A stretch of DNA of 64,000 bases. Source: Maritimibacter sp. 55A14 (GTDB taxonomy: Bacteria > Pseudomonadota > Alphaproteobacteria > Rhodobacterales > Rhodobacteraceae). The notes beneath the pieces are model-generated. The model did no database searches and was not told the DNA's origin. It was given only the letters and a program-made list of their open reading frames with translations. Made by a program: the position numbers and the translations under genes. Position 1 is the first letter of the stretch, and each line of letters starts with the position of its first letter. Location: contig NZ_QEYE01000010.1 in assembly GCF_003122205.1 (NCBI RefSeq), positions 1 to 64,000 on the forward strand. Direction: 5' to 3'. Of the stretch, positions 63 to 7,534 are shown piece after piece.

Positions 63-125
63 GTCACCGCTCTGTTTTCAGGCGGTGAATCACGATGCTC
101 GGCTGAAATCAATGGGTCCTGACCC
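1..125 (-). mobile_element. End of an IS5-family insertion sequence (partial)
   Basis: The left edge of the window holds the 5' end of a transposase gene read leftward, followed by about 60 bases of non-coding element end. Read on the minus strand, the element would begin with GGGTCAGGACCC, at 125-114, which fits the terminal repeats I remember for IS427/IS1031-type members of the IS5 family. The rest of the element and its other end lie outside the window, so the target duplication (perhaps the TAA at 126-128) cannot be checked. Confidence 0.7.
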
Positions 126-876
126 TAACACGCTCGAACTGGCCGAGCACGTTGCGAAGATCGTCAGTCAGGTGCCCCCGTGCGCACATGACAATCTCCG
201 CCGGCACGCCGTGTATTGCCTCGGCGACTGCTCCGGCGATACAGGCCAGCGTATCGGTATCTCCGCCAAGGCAAACTGCGGTGCGGACCGCGTCTTCCCA
301 GTCCGTGCTCTCGAACGCGGCCGCGAGCGCGGGAGGCACTGTTCCCGCCGCCGAGACGTCAAAGCCGCCGCCCCTCAGCGCGACCTCGGGGCGCAAGTCG
401 TAACCCCAGGTATCGCCGATCCACTCTCGAACCTCTGCGGCGGTGGCGCCCTGGCGAAGCGCCAGGATGGCACGCGCCACCGACTGAGCCGCCTTCACCG
501 CATCTTCGTGATTGTGGCTAACCTCGGCCTGCGCGGCGGCGAGTGCGTCGGTCTCCGCCGCATCCGCGGCGAGCCAACCCACGGCGGCGACGCGCATCGG
601 TGCGCCGTTGCCCCAGCTGCCGTAGGCCGGCGCCTCGTCGGTCAGCGCCCACCGGAGAAACATTCCCCCATAGCCTGCGTCCGGGTGTCGGCGCACATAT
701 GCGCGGAGTGTGGCTGCGAAGTCCCCCTGACACATGATGGCATCGGCCACCGCGACCGTGCACACCGTGTCGTCGGTGAAGCGGCAGTCGCGGTGGAATA
801 GCTCGAACCCCTCCGGTGGCGCGGCGTGCCCCTCGAAGCGCGACCCGATGATGTCGCCTGCTATCGCGCCGATCAT
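109..876 (-). CDS. ADP-ribosylglycohydrolase (DraG-like), 3' end replaced by IS
   Basis: The 255-residue protein carries the ADP-ribosylglycohydrolase signature: GDIIGSRFE near the N-terminus, FTDDT, HNHEDA in the middle and GGDTDT near the C-terminus. In this family these acidic residues hold two Mg ions that cleave ADP-ribose from proteins or small molecules. The ATG at 876 was chosen because MIGAIAGD is the family's usual start. The start overlaps the stop of the upstream permease by four bases (ATGA), implying translational coupling. The last five or six codons, including the stop at 109-111, lie inside the insertion sequence, so the native C-terminus is lost. All catalytic motifs remain. 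Its substrate is unknown; its place at the end of a metal-type operon is unusual. Confidence 0.85.
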   Translation of the reverse strand: MIGAIAGDIIGSRFEGHAAPPEGFELFHRDCRFTDDTVCTVAVADAIMCQGDFAATLRAYVRRHPDAGYGGMFLRWALTDEAPAYGSWGNGAPMRVAAVGWLAADAAETDALAAAQAEVSHNHEDAVKAAQSVARAILALRQGATAAEVREWIGDTWGYDLRPEVALRGGGFDVSAAGTVPPALAAAFESTDWEDAVRTAVCLGGDTDTLACIAGAVAEAIHGVPAEIVMCARGHLTDDLRNVLGQFERVRVRTH

Positions 877-1886
877 CTGTGTCTCCCGCCGGTTTTGTCC
901 ATCATGACGCGTTCCTCCCCGATCGGCGGGTGCTCCGGAACCAGATAGCGCGGCACGATCCACAGATAGGCGATCATGCCCAGGAGTTCGACGAGTGACT
1001 GAAGGACGATGACCACTGCCGCCGTGCTCGATTCCGGCCCCAGGGCCAGCACCAGCGGAAGTACGACAAAGGAGTTGCGGGTGCCGAAGGAGAATATGAG
1101 CGTCCTGCGCTCCGGCGCCGGTAGTCCCGCCACGCACCCCACCGTACACCCAAAAAGCGCAGCTGCGACCAGGTATGCCACGTAGATGCCTGCCACCTGC
1201 GCCAGAAGCGGCAGGGCATCACGCACCGCGTCGACTTGTGACGCGGCGATCAGGAACACGACGAGCGCCAGCAGTGGGATCGGCAGCCAACCGAGACGGC
1301 CCACGACATGCTGCCGTCCCGGCCGCGTCTCGGCCCACCGCTCAATCACGAATGCGGCGGCGAGGGGCAGCAGGATCAGCGTCACGAAAGCGGCAGCGAC
1401 CCGATCGGCGGCGAGGAGTTCGAGGAATGTATCGCCCAGAAAGAGCCAAAGAAACACGGGCAGCAATGCGATTTGAACGAAGAGGAGGATCGGCGTTGCA
1501 GCAGCGGCGCGCAGGGCATCGCCGCGCCCAAGATGAGTAAAGGTGATGAACCAGTCGGTACAGGGCACGAGCAGCACGACGAGCACGCCCAGCTGGATCG
1601 CCGGGTTGTCGGGCAGAAACAAATACAGCGCCCAGACCAGGAGCGGCACCAAAACGAAGTTCCCGGCCAACATGGCACCAATGAAGCGGCGGTCGCGGGC
1701 GGCCTGCGGCAGGTGCACAAGAGGCACCTGCGTGAAGGTGGCGAAAAGTAACAGGCCCAGCACAGGCCAGAGCAGCATCTCGAACGCGCCCGCGACGCCG
1801 GGAACGAGCGTGCCCAACGCCAGCCCCAAAAGGATCGCAGCGAGATAGATCCAGACCTGGTGGCGTTCGAACTGTTGCAGCGTCAT
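873..1886 (-). CDS. ACR3/bile-acid-symporter-like permease, arsenic resistance type
   Basis: This 337-residue protein has about ten predicted membrane helices and belongs to the BASS superfamily (Acr3 and sodium/bile acid symporters). The stretch LVPCTDWFITFTHLG places a cysteine in a central helix, as in Acr3 arsenite exporters, and resembles proteins often named arsenic resistance protein. Acr3 proteins extrude arsenite or antimonite. The start at 1886 (MTLQQFERH) is preferred over a longer frame whose extra 25 residues look non-native. It lies 101 bases downstream of the rhodanese gene and overlaps the next gene by four bases. No arsC or arsR is present here, so the exact substrate is uncertain. 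Confidence 0.75.
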   Translation of the reverse strand: MTLQQFERHQVWIYLAAILLGLALGTLVPGVAGAFEMLLWPVLGLLLFATFTQVPLVHLPQAARDRRFIGAMLAGNFVLVPLLVWALYLFLPDNPAIQLGVLVVLLVPCTDWFITFTHLGRGDALRAAAATPILLFVQIALLPVFLWLFLGDTFLELLAADRVAAAFVTLILLPLAAAFVIERWAETRPGRQHVVGRLGWLPIPLLALVVFLIAASQVDAVRDALPLLAQVAGIYVAYLVAAALFGCTVGCVAGLPAPERRTLIFSFGTRNSFVVLPLVLALGPESSTAAVVIVLQSLVELLGMIAYLWIVPRYLVPEHPPIGEERVMMDKTGGRHR

Positions 1887-1987
1887 GGTCCTGTTCCGGT
1901 TGTCCCGAGGCGTGCCTCCCACCTGATACCGCGCGATCGGGCCAGAGACCAGCACAGGCAATCCGCCGACGCCTGGTGCGCCGGATC

Positions 1988-2317
1988 CTAACCCGCTTCC
2001 ACCGGCAGGCGGGCCTCGATCCAGTCGGCCTTGCCCTCGTGATAGTCGCGGACTTTGCGATAGCCCAGTTGCAGCAGCCGATCAGCCGCGAGCGATGACC
2101 GCATGCACGGCCCGTTGCCGCAATACACCACGATCTCCGTGTCACGATCCGGTATCCGGATGGGCGCCTCCGACACAATGTCGTCGGAGCGAATGTTTAT
2201 GGCGCCAGGCAAATGGGACTTGCGATAATGTGTGTCGGGCAGCGTGTCGACAAGGACGAACACGTCAGCCCGGTCGAGCTTTGCCTTCAGTTGGTCGCGT
2301 GAAATGCGGTCGGTCAT
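1988..2317 (-). CDS. Single-domain rhodanese-like sulfurtransferase
   Basis: This 109-residue protein is one rhodanese domain. It has HLPGAINI before the active loop and the catalytic loop CGNGPCMRS (Cys66, with a second Cys at 71). Such proteins carry persulfide sulfur to acceptors such as thiols, cyanide or metal centres. The start at 2317 is chosen because GGAGG lies nine bases upstream; the alternative ATG at 2326 would sit directly against the GGAGG. It overlaps the end of the membrane protein gene by only the spacing region, so it is in the same operon. The extra cysteine in the loop could bind thiophilic metals, but that is inference. Confidence 0.8.
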   Translation of the reverse strand: MTDRISRDQLKAKLDRADVFVLVDTLPDTHYRKSHLPGAINIRSDDIVSEAPIRIPDRDTEIVVYCGNGPCMRSSLAADRLLQLGYRKVRDYHEGKADWIEARLPVEAG

Positions 2318-2322
2318 GTGCG

Positions 2323-2793
2323 TCATCCTCCGTTCCGGTTCGGCTGGGACGATACCGGAAACGCCAGGCGGCACAGTCCCCAGAGGAACAGCCCGAACAG
2401 CAGATGCGGCACAAAGGAGCCAACGATCAACTGCGGTCCGACGACTAGGCCAAGCGGACCCCAGCCCACTATGGGAAAGAAGATCACCAGCACGCCGATC
2501 CACAGGACTAGCGCCAGCAGGGCTGCGTTGCGCAAGGTCAGGCTTTGGCGAAAAACCGCGACGAAAGCCATTGACCAGAAGGTAACATAGGCGAGGTGAA
2601 ACAGCAGCCCGACGGGCGGCGGCAGTGACCGGCCGGCCAGTGTTTCTGCGAAGGCCAACCCGAGCGGCTTGGGAAGCGGCGAGACGCCCAGCTTCATCAT
2701 GGTTATCATGATCACCGACAGCGCCACGCCGTTGGCAATGCCCAGCCCGAAGGCCCTGGCCCATTCACGGGTCGAGAGTCGGTGGAATTCCAT
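2323..2793 (-). CDS. Four-helix membrane protein of unknown function
   Basis: The 156-residue product has four hydrophobic segments at about residues 13-35, 58-80, 88-110 and 115-145, and no cysteine-rich metal site. I do not recognise a family with certainty. The start at 2793 follows a very strong ribosome binding site (AAGGAGG, six bases before the ATG). The first 29 bases overlap the end of the upstream gene in another frame, so translation is probably coupled. Its place between a vicinal-Cys membrane protein and a rhodanese suggests a role in the same stress response, but nothing in the sequence gives a mechanism. Confidence 0.65.
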   Translation of the reverse strand: MEFHRLSTREWARAFGLGIANGVALSVIMITMMKLGVSPLPKPLGLAFAETLAGRSLPPPVGLLFHLAYVTFWSMAFVAVFRQSLTLRNAALLALVLWIGVLVIFFPIVGWGPLGLVVGPQLIVGSFVPHLLFGLFLWGLCRLAFPVSSQPNRNGG

Positions 2794-3187
2794 GGTTAAC
2801 CTCCTTTCGTTCTGCTATCGGCAGTATGGCCCGACGCACCTGCCTGCCATCTCTGTCAACCGTTGCCGAGGACGCTGGAGAGAGCTTTTCTCCACGGGCC
2901 TCCGGCGAGTCGCTTGTGCCCGGACCGCCGCATTTGCCGGATTGGCACGCGCAATCCCGCTCGGACGTCGTCGGGATGCCCCACGCGGAACGAGACCGGT
3001 AAAGAGCAAAACCGGCAACGGCGGTAGCCAGGATCAGCACTCCGGCAGTTCCGGCTGCGACCCAGGCGAGGCCGCCGGCGGCGACCAACCCTGCCACGAT
3101 CGGCACAATCAGCGGCGCGCAGCAGAGCGCACAGGCCGCCAGTGCCGCGCCGCCGTATATCGCAGTAGGACGAAATGCGTGCTTCAT
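2765..3187 (-). CDS. MerT/MerF-like small membrane protein with vicinal cysteines
   Basis: The 140-residue protein begins MKHAFRPTA and has two hydrophobic helices at about 10-33 and 37-63. The first contains CALCCAPLIVP, a vicinal Cys-Cys followed by a proline, which is the arrangement used by the mercuric ion transporters MerT and MerF. A second cluster, CACQSGKCGG, sits just after the membrane part at about residue 79-88. The C-terminal 50 residues look disordered. The start overlaps the previous stop by four bases. I infer handling of a thiophilic metal; sequence similarity to MerT is local, so a transport role is not proven. Confidence 0.65.
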   Translation of the reverse strand: MKHAFRPTAIYGGAALAACALCCAPLIVPIVAGLVAAGGLAWVAAGTAGVLILATAVAGFALYRSRSAWGIPTTSERDCACQSGKCGGPGTSDSPEARGEKLSPASSATVDRDGRQVRRAILPIAERKEVNHGIPPTLDP

Positions 3188-3576
3188 CGCCCCGCCTCCG
3201 GGGTGCGGCCCTCGAAAGCGTCGAAAAGCTCCCACCCGGCCGCTTCGGCATGTCTCGGAGTGGTTACCGTCACCAGAAGGCGATCACCGATATTCTTGAT
3301 ATCGAAGGTCAGAAAGCTGCAGCACTCCGATTCCCGCGCAATGAGCGCGCTCACCTCGCCTTTCGCAGACCGGCGGAAATGGAGGCGAAGCACAAAGTCG
3401 CTCCGCTCGGACCGGAGCAGCGCTCGGCGCGCCAGATCACGGATTTCCGACAGGCGGTTTTCTAGGTTTTCCGGCTCCAATACGCAGGCGGCGGCAAGTG
3501 AGACGGCGCTCGGCGGACTTCCGGACGTCGGGCAGCACGGGTGGTGTTCGGGTGAAGAGCGCTTGATGGGTTCCAT
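3184..3576 (-). CDS. Cys-rich protein, first gene of a MerR-controlled operon
   Basis: This 130-residue soluble protein has an HHPCCP motif near the N-terminus (residues 11-16) and ECCSFLTFDI near residue 84, so two vicinal Cys pairs are present. No known enzymatic motif was recognised. The ATG at 3576 is supported by GGAGA five to six bases upstream; a longer frame would run into the promoter. It is the promoter-proximal gene under the MerR-type promoter at 3604-3634 and ends in a four-base overlap with the MerT-like gene. A role in binding or handing over a thiophilic metal is plausible but inferred from cysteines and position only. Confidence 0.6.
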   Translation of the reverse strand: MEPIKRSSPEHHPCCPTSGSPPSAVSLAAACVLEPENLENRLSEIRDLARRALLRSERSDFVLRLHFRRSAKGEVSALIARESECCSFLTFDIKNIGDRLLVTVTTPRHAEAAGWELFDAFEGRTPEAGR

Positions 3577-3603
3577 TGAGTTCTCCTTGACAACGCTCGG
3601 CCG

Positions 3604-3634
3604 AACATAGGACTTCAAGTAACTTGAGGTGCAA
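3604..3634 (-). promoter_or_regulatory. MerR-type promoter with 19-bp spacer and dyad operator
   Basis: Read leftward, the -35 box is TTGCAC (3634-3629) and the -10 box is TATGTT (3609-3604), separated by exactly 19 bp. The spacer and the last base of the -35 box hold the dyad CCTCAAGT-T-ACTTGAAG, seven of eight pairs matching. An over-long 19-bp spacer with a central dyad is the hallmark of promoters that MerR-family activators twist into an active shape. The site lies 28 bases upstream of the Cys-rich gene and 15 bases upstream of the divergent merR-like gene. Confidence 0.85.
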
Positions 3635-3649
3635 CCGTGGAGTCTGCCC

Positions 3650-4072
3650 ATGACCGATCACGAATCCGTGTTCTCAATCGGCGCCCTGGCCGAAGCAGCT
3701 GGGGTCTCGCCACCGACGATACGCTACTATGAGGAAATCAGGCTTATCCCGCCCGCGCGCCGCAGCGCCGCCGGCCACCGGCACTACACGCGGGAGGATG
3801 TGGACCGCCTGACATTTATTCGCCGGTGCCGGGACTTCGGATTCGGGCTTGACCAAATCCGGGTTCTGTCGAGCCTCGCGCTCAGCCCGGACAGGGATTG
3901 TGTCGAGGTTCGAGACATCGCCGCCGCGCATCTGACGGCGGTGCGTGCCAGAATGGTTGAACTGCGCAGCCTGGAACGGCAACTTCAGGAATTCGTCGAA
4001 ACCTGCGAGGCTGCCTGCTGTGGTGGCCCTGGCCGCGACTGTGTTGCGCTGGCAGAACTCAAAACACGCTGA
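3650..4072 (+). CDS. MerR-family metal-responsive transcriptional regulator
   Basis: The 140-residue protein has the N-terminal winged helix (FSIGALAEAAGVSPPTIRYYE), a dimerisation helix, and a metal-binding C-terminus. Cys84 falls where +2-metal sensors such as ZntR and MerR keep a cysteine and copper sensors have serine. The tail adds Cys119, Cys123, Cys124 and Cys131 (ACCGGPGRDC), much like ZntR. Sensing of Zn, Cd, Pb or Hg is therefore more likely than Cu(I). The ATG at 3650 is chosen because GGAG lies seven bases upstream and the alternative at 3629 falls inside the operator. It is divergent from, and presumably controls, the leftward operon. Confidence 0.9.
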   Translation: MTDHESVFSIGALAEAAGVSPPTIRYYEEIRLIPPARRSAAGHRHYTREDVDRLTFIRRCRDFGFGLDQIRVLSSLALSPDRDCVEVRDIAAAHLTAVRARMVELRSLERQLQEFVETCEAACCGGPGRDCVALAELKTR

Positions 4073-4340: not shown

Positions 4341-4790
4341 CTAGAGATAGCTGCGCACCAGCGCGCCCGCCAGCAGGCTCCCGCCGTCGGCCATCACGAA
4401 GAAAGCCAGCTTGAACGGCAGCGACACGATCGCCGGCGGGACCATCATCATGCCCATCGACATCAGGACTGCCGCCACCACGAGGTCGATGATCAGGAAG
4501 GGCAGGAAGATCAGGAAGCCGATCTGGAAGGCGCGCGCCACCTCGCTGAGCATGAAGGAGGGGATCAGGACGGAGAGCGGCGCATCGCCCTCCGGCGCGC
4601 CGCCGGGTGCGGCCGGGCGCAGGTCGCGCATGGCGGCCAGCGTGTCCGGGTCCACCCGCGCGGACATGAAGCCGCGAAAGGGCTCCAGCGCGGCGGTGAG
4701 CGCCGGTTCCAGCTCCATCCGGCCGGCGGTCAGCGGCTCGATGCCCAGGCGCCAGGCGGCGGCGAGCAACGCGGAGAACCGCGTGATCGC
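4341..4790 (-). pseudogene. fliP: Flagellar export protein FliP, 5'-truncated
   Basis: The surviving part encodes the C-terminal half of Fli[20 protein letters not shown], then [19 protein letters not shown] and [14 protein letters not shown], which are the last two membrane helices and the most conserved blocks of the family. FliP is normally about 245 residues and has a signal peptide, an N-terminal helix and the RQALGTQ block; all are missing. Homology fades at about 4770-4790, where the antisense sequence becomes the C-terminal part of fliI. The product could not build the FliPQR export gate. The upstream boundary is approximate. The 3' end and stop are intact. Confidence 0.85.
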
Positions 4791-5061
4791 CCGCGCGCGC
4801 CGGGTGCTCGGCACCTATGACCGTGCCGAGACGATGATCCAGGCCGGACTGTACGATCCGGGTTCCGATGCGGCGATCGACGAAGCGATCCGGCTCTGGC
4901 CGGGGCTCGACGCGTTTCTGTCGGAGGATGCGCCGGATGGCATCGCGGGGAGCTTCGCGCGCCTCGAAAGCCTGCTTGAGCCCGATGACGCGGCGGGGGC
5001 GGCGTCTGACGCCCGCGGCCTCAAGCCTAAAGCAGGGCTGTCAGGATCGAGCCCGCGGTGA
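4771..5061 (+). pseudogene. fliI: Flagellar export ATPase FliI, C-terminal fragment only
   Basis: The rightward frame encodes [16 protein letters not shown], then AGLYDPGSDAAIDEAIRLWP and GLDAFLSEDAP, matching the helical C-terminal domain of FliI after the ATPase core. The Walker motifs and the whole nucleotide-binding domain (about 370 residues) are absent, and no start codon or ribosome site precedes the fragment. The stop at 5061 runs 35 bases into the convergent DUF1217 gene. Its 5' break coincides with the 5' break of fliP on the other strand, so a single deletion or rearrangement probably removed both. Confidence 0.8.
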
Positions 5062-6709: not shown

Positions 6710-7534
6710 TTACCGGAACAGCGACAGGACGTTCTGCGGCTGCTGGTTGGCGATGGAGAGCGCCTGCGTGCCAAGCTGCTGCTGCACCTGCAGCGCCTGC
6801 AGCCGGGCCGAAGCCGCTTCCAGATCCGCATCCACGAGCGCGCCGATCCCCGCCTTGATCGAGTCGGTCAGGCGGTTCACGAACTCGCCCTGTTTCTCGA
6901 TGCGGTTGAGCGAGGAGCCCAGCGCGGAGGCCCCGTCGATCGACGTCTGGATCAGCGTTTCGATCGCCGCCAACGAAGTGTCGGCGGCCGCCGGTGTGCT
7001 GACATCGACGGTCGTCAGGTCGAGACCGGTCTCGAAATCCACCGAGGCGACCGTGATGTTGGACGCGGTCACCGCGCCCGCCGCGTCACGGTCGAGCGAG
7101 GACAGGACGGTGATGCTGCCGCCCGCCGTGTTGAGCAGGTTCGCCCCGTTGAACTGTGCCGCGCCGATGACGGACGTGATCTGGCTCTTCAGTTCGGTCA
7201 CATCGGCCGTGATCTTGGCGTTGTCCACGTTCTCGCCGGTGGCGGAAACCACCTTTTCCTTGATCTGGGTGAGAATGTCGGTGATCTGCTCCGCACCGGC
7301 CAGCGCGACGCCGACCGTGGATTCGCCCAGCGAAAGCGACTCGGAGATCGCGTTGAAGCCGCTCACATCCGATTCCATCACCTTCGAGATGGCGAAGACC
7401 GATGCGTTGTCGGCGGCCGAGCCGACCTTCTTGCCGGTGGAGATCTGGCTTTGCGTGTCTTCCAGATTGCCGTTGATCGTGCGCAGGGTCTGAAGCGCGA
7501 CCATCGCGCTGGTGTTGGTGAGAATACTTGTCAT
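6710..7534 (-). CDS. fliC: Flagellin
   Basis: The 274-residue protein has both conserved flagellin ends: MTSILTNTSAMVALQTLR with ISTGKKVGSAADNAS at the N-terminus, and the C-terminal helix ending NQQPQNVLSLFR. The central variable region is short, typical of alphaproteobacterial flagellins. The ATG at 7534 is preferred because GAAGGA lies upstream and the family begins MTSI; a TTG three codons earlier is possible. The 219 bases upstream hold no gene. Flagellin is exported through the flagellar type III apparatus, which would need an intact FliP elsewhere in the genome. Confidence 0.95.
   Translation of the reverse strand: MTSILTNTSAMVALQTLRTINGNLEDTQSQISTGKKVGSAADNASVFAISKVMESDVSGFNAISESLSLGESTVGVALAGAEQITDILTQIKEKVVSATGENVDNAKITADVTELKSQITSVIGAAQFNGANLLNTAGGSITVLSSLDRDAAGAVTASNITVASVDFETGLDLTTVDVSTPAAADTSLAAIETLIQTSIDGASALGSSLNRIEKQGEFVNRLTDSIKAGIGALVDADLEAASARLQALQVQQQLGTQALSIANQQPQNVLSLFR

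Follow-up and report, generated by a model that had tools for sequence, protein, structure and literature searches.

A MerR-controlled six-gene operon of Maritimibacter sp. 55A14 as a candidate resistance system for a thiophilic metal, possibly mercury

What does the operon at the start of contig NZ_QEYE01000010.1 of Maritimibacter sp. 55A14 (assembly GCF_003122205.1) respond to, and what could its products do? We analysed positions 1 to 64,000 of this contig (the window), in which six minus-strand genes, P6, P5, P4, P3, P2 and P1, run consecutively from 3576 to 109 and diverge from a plus-strand merR-type gene, P7. We propose that they are a resistance operon switched by the MerR-type protein and directed against a thiophilic metal, with Hg(II) or an organomercurial as the most likely one, a reading whose probability we would put at roughly 0.5. 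From the comparisons made here, the chance that the metal is mercury appears to be about one in two, and that of any soft metal or metalloid about nine in ten. The evidence for mercury is circumstantial. The elements in question are the following:

3650 to 4072, plus strand: P7, merR-type regulator of 140 amino acids with Cys84, Cys119, Cys123, Cys124 and Cys131 (Pfam, cysteine alignment, tree)
3604 to 3634, minus strand: operator/promoter TTGCAC-19 bp-TATGTT with the dyad CTCAAGTTACTTGAAG, kept in about 15 other loci and present at one position in its own genome
3184 to 3576, minus strand: P6, 130 amino acids, unnamed family (30-member alignment; alpha/beta model with a predicted local distance difference test score, pLDDT, of 80.6)
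2765 to 3187, minus strand: P5, 140 amino acids, two-helix MerF-like membrane protein (signature, profile match, fusion with P6)
2323 to 2793, minus strand: P4, 156 amino acids, four-helix membrane protein with weak similarity to DUF6789 (Pfam PF20587, below cut-off; predicted model with four long helices)
1988 to 2317, minus strand: P3, single-domain rhodanese of 109 amino acids with the loop C66GNGPC71MRS (Pfam Rhodanese, PF00581, 63.6 bits)
873 to 1886, minus strand: P2, SBF/Acr3-related permease of 337 amino acids with conserved Pro108-Cys109 and TRNS at 269-272 (Pfam SBF)
109 to 876, minus strand: P1, ADP-ribosylglycohydrolase of 255 amino acids, ATG at 876 (Pfam PF03747, 95.5 bits)

This layout agrees with what had been read from the letters alone: six leftward genes beside a divergent MerR-type gene, a MerR promoter with a 19-bp spacer, a sensor with a Cys84-type ligand for +2 metals, two unfamiliar Cys-pair proteins, a four-helix membrane protein and a rhodanese with an extra loop cysteine were all recovered. 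The same sequence-only reading had the genes mostly coupled by four-base overlaps, which is the case at only two of the five junctions (P6/P5 and P2/P1); P5 and P4 overlap by 29 bases, and gaps of 5 and 101 bases lie between P4 and P3 and between P3 and P2, respectively. Internal terminators were uninformative (5 counted, 3.3 expected).

In the MerR family the operator sits within a promoter spacer of 19-20 bp (PMC9909328), and here a spacer of 19 bp between TTGCAC and TATGTT holds the dyad CTCAAGT-T-ACTTGAAG. The same operator and 19-base spacer precede the homologous gene in L002, L005, L009, L010, L011, L013, L015, L016, L019, L020, L023, L024, L026, L029 and L034 (L-numbers are the labels of the loci compared), a set that includes the near-identical pairs L009/L013 and L023/L024. 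In its own 3.8-Mb genome the operator TTGNNCYTCAAGTTACTTGARG, with as many as two mismatches allowed, matches a single site, read from either strand, and the reversed control of the pattern matches nowhere. Together with its recurrence in the other loci, this puts the element far above chance. Because the operator occupies a single genomic position, the regulator seems to be dedicated to the window operon and to serve no other.

P7 itself carries MerR domains above the Pfam cut-offs (MerR_1, PF13411, 75.1 bits; MerR-DNA-bind, PF09278, 65.8 bits) and falls below the NCBIfam equivalog cut-offs for CadR/PbrR (TIGR02047, 104.5 bits, cut-off 151.45), CueR (102.9 bits), ZntR, the MerR of mer operons (TIGR02051, 93.7 bits, cut-off 150.85) and SoxR (TIGR01950, 34.9 bits, cut-off 116.9). 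Its Cys84, Cys119 and Cys131 align with Cys77, Cys112 and Cys119 of CadR. Among MerR-family proteins, the sensors of +2 ions are recognised by a cysteine where CadR has Cys77 (PMC9909328; PMC11591864), and the predicted protein fits this pattern, including the loop with C119, C123, C124 and C131. In a tree of 50 rows, P7 falls within a clade of 27 regulators (support 99/91), outside of which lie both the mer-operon MerRs and CadR/PbrR. Apart from one truncated row, all members of the clade have the loop CxxxC[A/C]GGPxx[DE]C or a near variant of it, and their genes adjoin homologues of P6, the one other case being L045, where a P2-like permease stands beside the regulator and no P6 is listed.

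P6 and P5 are the usual companions of this regulator. The 30 aligned P6 homologues, which represent alphaproteobacteria, betaproteobacteria and a small number of other groups, have Cys31, Glu82, Cys85, Cys86, Phe88, Leu89, Phe91 and Pro107 invariant. None of these 30 members scores above a Pfam cut-off, no relative was present among the PDB sequences, and the mer gene list in PMC3466566 has no gene like P6. A pattern scan across about 85,000 species in GTDB gave 32 loci, and P6 is thus rare. The fold was also considered as a guide to function: the best PDB matches were C-terminal domains of ArgR (Z 8.3, root-mean-square deviation 2.8 Å over 78 residues), a match within the range of common arrangements, and no function was drawn from it.

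P5 has Cys19, Cys22 and Cys23 in its first helix, where the signature ACxxCCAxPL lies, seen as ACAACCAxPLL across 12 family members, and C79xC81...C86 in a Cys-rich tail. This layout fits the MerF pattern of two helices, a Cys pair in helix 1 and a cytosolic Cys pair, and profile comparison matched MerF with 93% probability and MerT with 18%, on thin, hydrophobic alignments; the NCBIfam MerF model gave no match. Fusions of a P5-like domain with a P6 domain occur in Paracoccus denitrificans, P. siganidrum, two Hyphomicrobiales bins and Rhizobium leguminosarum, and the two genes are adjacent in many other loci. The natural fusion is good evidence that P5 and P6 work as a pair. In L005, L023, L028 and L034 no P5 was found, and P4 lies directly downstream of P6; in these loci and in L024, L026 and L029, P4 is placed directly 3' of P6 or one gene further. 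Gene calls in the GC-rich comparison loci were weighted by homology and codon usage. The conserved core consists of MerR, P6 and P5, and P4 and P2 are frequent partners.

Two further observations concern the surroundings of P6. A gene for a small membrane protein of the YnfA family recurs beside the P6/MerR pair (L004, 5084-5425; L010, 7566-7904; L014, 6158-6574; L025; L029). In L004, which is from a Sphingomonas plasmid, positions 6715-7303 hold genes for a GDCCVxC protein and for a 122-amino-acid MerT-like protein, next to a P6/P5 pair; the MerT-like protein is annotated as 'mercuric reductase', a misannotation to judge by its length.

P2 scores 51.7 bits against the SBF model (PF01758, cut-off 24.3), placing it in the SBF/BASS family, but only 33.9 bits against the Acr3 arsenite transporter model TIGR00832 (cut-off 282.8). 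The Acr3-like permease proposed earlier thus stands as an Acr3-related one with the Pro-Cys motif, below the score of an Acr3 equivalog. At least 95% of the 21 relatives compared keep Cys109. Selenocysteine in P2 relatives, with in-frame TGA reported in L050-L052, was considered and rejected, as those translated are ordinary stop codons. P2-like permeases occur near P6 in L005, L011, L015, L019, L020, L021, L028, L031, L032 and L034. L020 and L021 share the arrangement MerR / P5, P6, a DsbD-like and a thioredoxin-like gene, with P2 downstream or across merR. The layout of L031 is similar and includes a DsbD-like gene, and a CcdA-like gene follows P6 in some alphaproteobacteria, so thiol-redox helpers are common.

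In Pontibrevibacter, Salipiger, Tritonibacter and four more genomes of their family, the closest relatives of P2, with about 60-77% identity, directly abut merR-merT-merP-merF-merA. On the Leisingera plasmid NZ_CP041157 the gene order is merR, merTPF, merA, merB, ccdA, a cyclase-like gene, a rhodanese gene and a P2-like permease gene that is apparently frameshifted, and the rhodanese is 72% identical to P3. The open reading frame between ccdA and the rhodanese gene, at the end of this merB-containing operon, is nucleotide-cyclase-like (L092/L091 junction). P3 has its putative active-site Cys66 within the CGNGPC loop, as expected of a rhodanese, and it may transfer sulfur, as its family suggests.

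The distribution of mercuric reductase points in the same direction. Three loci (L016, L026 and L029) have merA no more than 7 kb from P6, in L028 it stands at the edge of the locus, and the genome of strain 55A14 has two separate canonical mer operons (L079, 796-4163, merR-merT-merP-merF-merA; L080, 4852-7055, merR-merF-merA). MerA above cut-off was found in 7 of 14 alphaproteobacterial carriers, compared with 16 of the 171 alphaproteobacteria sampled (Fisher p = 0.0004). Among the carriers, 6/6 genomes with P4 had it versus 2/18 others (p = 0.0002), both p-values being optimistic because the carrier genomes are related and share resistance islands. Detoxification of a thiophilic metal or metalloid, as suggested at the outset, stays the best reading, and the mer neighbourhoods and the co-occurrence with MerA favour mercury.

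Besides the relatedness of the carriers, several points weigh against mercury. All nine betaproteobacterial carriers and seven alphaproteobacterial ones have no MerA above cut-off, so that MerA is not needed by the core. For a resistance operon, MerF-type import would be unusual where no reductase stands beside it, and the thinness of the P5-MerF alignments counts here as well. Other metals are also represented around the homologues: arsenic genes (arsH, arsR, arsN2) lie near L004, L010 and L030, a more distant P2 relative belongs to the arsenic cluster arsC-arsR-arsJ of L044, and copper-type genes (CusF-like and RND) lie near L014 and L045.

The arsenic neighbourhoods would suit a metalloid operon, in which As(III), Sb(III) or organoarsenicals are the signal for the MerR protein, P2 exports in the manner of Acr3, and P5 and P6 serve as metalloid chaperones. 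The Acr3-related sequence of P2 with its kept Pro-Cys motif would agree with this, as would the fusion of rhodaneses to ArsR-type regulators elsewhere. However, the score of P2 is far under the Acr3 cut-off, its nearest relatives adjoin mer and not ars genes, the operon itself has no arsenic gene, and the cysteine arrangement of the regulator is that of a +2-ion sensor; we therefore regard a metalloid as an unlikely substrate. A system for Cd, Pb, Zn or copper seems similarly improbable. P7 would then be a variant CadR or CueR in an operon that keeps toxic divalent or monovalent metals in check with the aid of thiol-redox helpers, and its two top NCBIfam scores are indeed those of CadR-PbrR and CueR. 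The copper-type genes named above and the DsbD/ScsB-like and thioredoxin-like genes of the L020/L021 clusters (DsbD-like in L031) also fit. Against it, both scores are under their cut-offs, the tree sets P7 apart from CadR/PbrR, Cys84 speaks against a sensor of the Cu(I) type (PMC9909328; PMC11591864), and the core includes no P-type ATPase, CDF or RND gene.

Least probable is a thiol- or redox-stress operon in which the MerR cysteines respond to oxidants or electrophiles and the rhodanese, DsbD/CcdA and P6 repair thiols: CcdA- or DsbD-type and thioredoxin-like genes do follow P6 in several loci, the window operon has its rhodanese gene and the operator half-site CCTCAAGT is similar to the SoxR box, but the SoxR score is low, a SoxR-type four-Cys cluster is unsupported since the fourth loop Cys is not conserved, and the core includes the metal-transport-like P5.

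On the favoured reading, the gene products can be arranged into a tentative mechanism. In the MerR dimer the metal would be bound jointly by Cys84' from one protomer and Cys119/Cys131 (plus 123/124) from its partner, and the metal-bound regulator would untwist and realign the promoter. P5 could receive the metal at the Cys pair in the membrane, move it along its Cys-rich tail and pass it on to Cys31, Cys85 and Cys86 of P6, which is what the natural fusion suggests. Metal bound to P6 would be shielded and then delivered to cellular reductants or, where present, to a trans-acting MerA; alternatively, it would leave the cell through P2 as a thiol adduct. P3 may be an accessory for sulfur or thiol supply, and P1 would be a passenger. 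A more novel version, which we consider rather doubtful, would handle mercury or organomercurials with no mercuric reductase at all: a MerF-like protein would pass the metal to P6 as a three-cysteine, cytosolic, chelating carrier, the Acr3-related permease would export a thiol adduct, and the regulator would be of its own MerR clade.

The role of P1 deserves separate consideration. Its TDDT and GGDTDT motifs are intact, it is an ADP-ribosylglycohydrolase by family, and its relatives in the PDB are ARH3 and DraG. It scores only 38 bits against the DraG model (TIGR02662, cut-off 337), so that the DraG-like hydrolase read earlier holds as to family but is no DraG equivalog by score. Its four-base overlap with P2 makes joint expression with the operon probable. 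A search of 292 genomes of the order gave nothing but remote matches to it; relatives in the class and on plasmids sit among NAD-salvage, metabolic or plasmid genes, and in none of the loci examined does one lie beside metal genes or other operon members. P1 is therefore a probable passenger, acquired in isolation, and reversal of ADP-ribosylation as a detoxification step, which the sequence-only reading had added, is unsupported, given its absence from related loci and the non-metal contexts of its relatives. Accordingly, one conserved system of all six genes is unsupported: the core with P4 and P2 as frequent partners does recur, but P1 is unlinked, and among the loci examined the Leisingera mer operon is the sole other place with the rhodanese-permease pair.

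Window base 1 is the contig end, and positions 1-62 on the minus strand encode an apparent N-terminus of an insertion sequence transposase (MSDLYWLSDAQMARLEPYFP) cut by the contig start; as the contig begins inside this putative transposase, the downstream side of the operon adjoins a mobile element at an assembly break. On the other side (4341-5061), a truncated fliP (FliP model positions 58-197 only) lies head-on to a C-terminal fragment of a FliI/type III secretion system-type ATPase. No match to a second fliP was found elsewhere in the genome. The flagellar cluster is hence broken directly beside the operon.

No description of this gene combination was found in the literature searched (subscription journals lie mostly outside its coverage), in keeping with the initial impression that it is not a described resistance system. 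A putative metal response can now be attached to two unnamed families, P5 and P6, as well as to one clade of regulators. If the metal is mercury, the presence of the core in MerA-free betaproteobacteria would mean MerA-independent mercury handling, and a function would be assigned to the permeases called 'arsenic resistance protein' beside Rhodobacterales mer operons.

Compared with known systems, P1 has the metal-site motifs TDDT and GGDTDT in common with DraG and ARH3, but no ADP-ribosyltransferase or nitrogenase context was seen around it. P2 belongs to the SBF family with a Pro-Cys motif, as do the Acr3/BASS permeases, but falls far under the Acr3 cut-off and has its closest relatives by mer rather than ars genes. 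P7 shares the three metal-ligand cysteines of CadR/PbrR, from which it differs by a longer loop, a score below the cut-off, a clade of its own and putative targets that are P6 and P5 instead of a P-type ATPase. Finally, although the window operon (109-4072) has no merA, merT, merP or merB, and is thus not a mer operon in the usual sense, and has a regulator of another clade, it resembles the mer operon in its divergent MerR, in its promoter with a 19-bp spacer and in a small membrane protein with a helix-1 Cys pair, and close relatives of both P2 and P3 abut mer operons.

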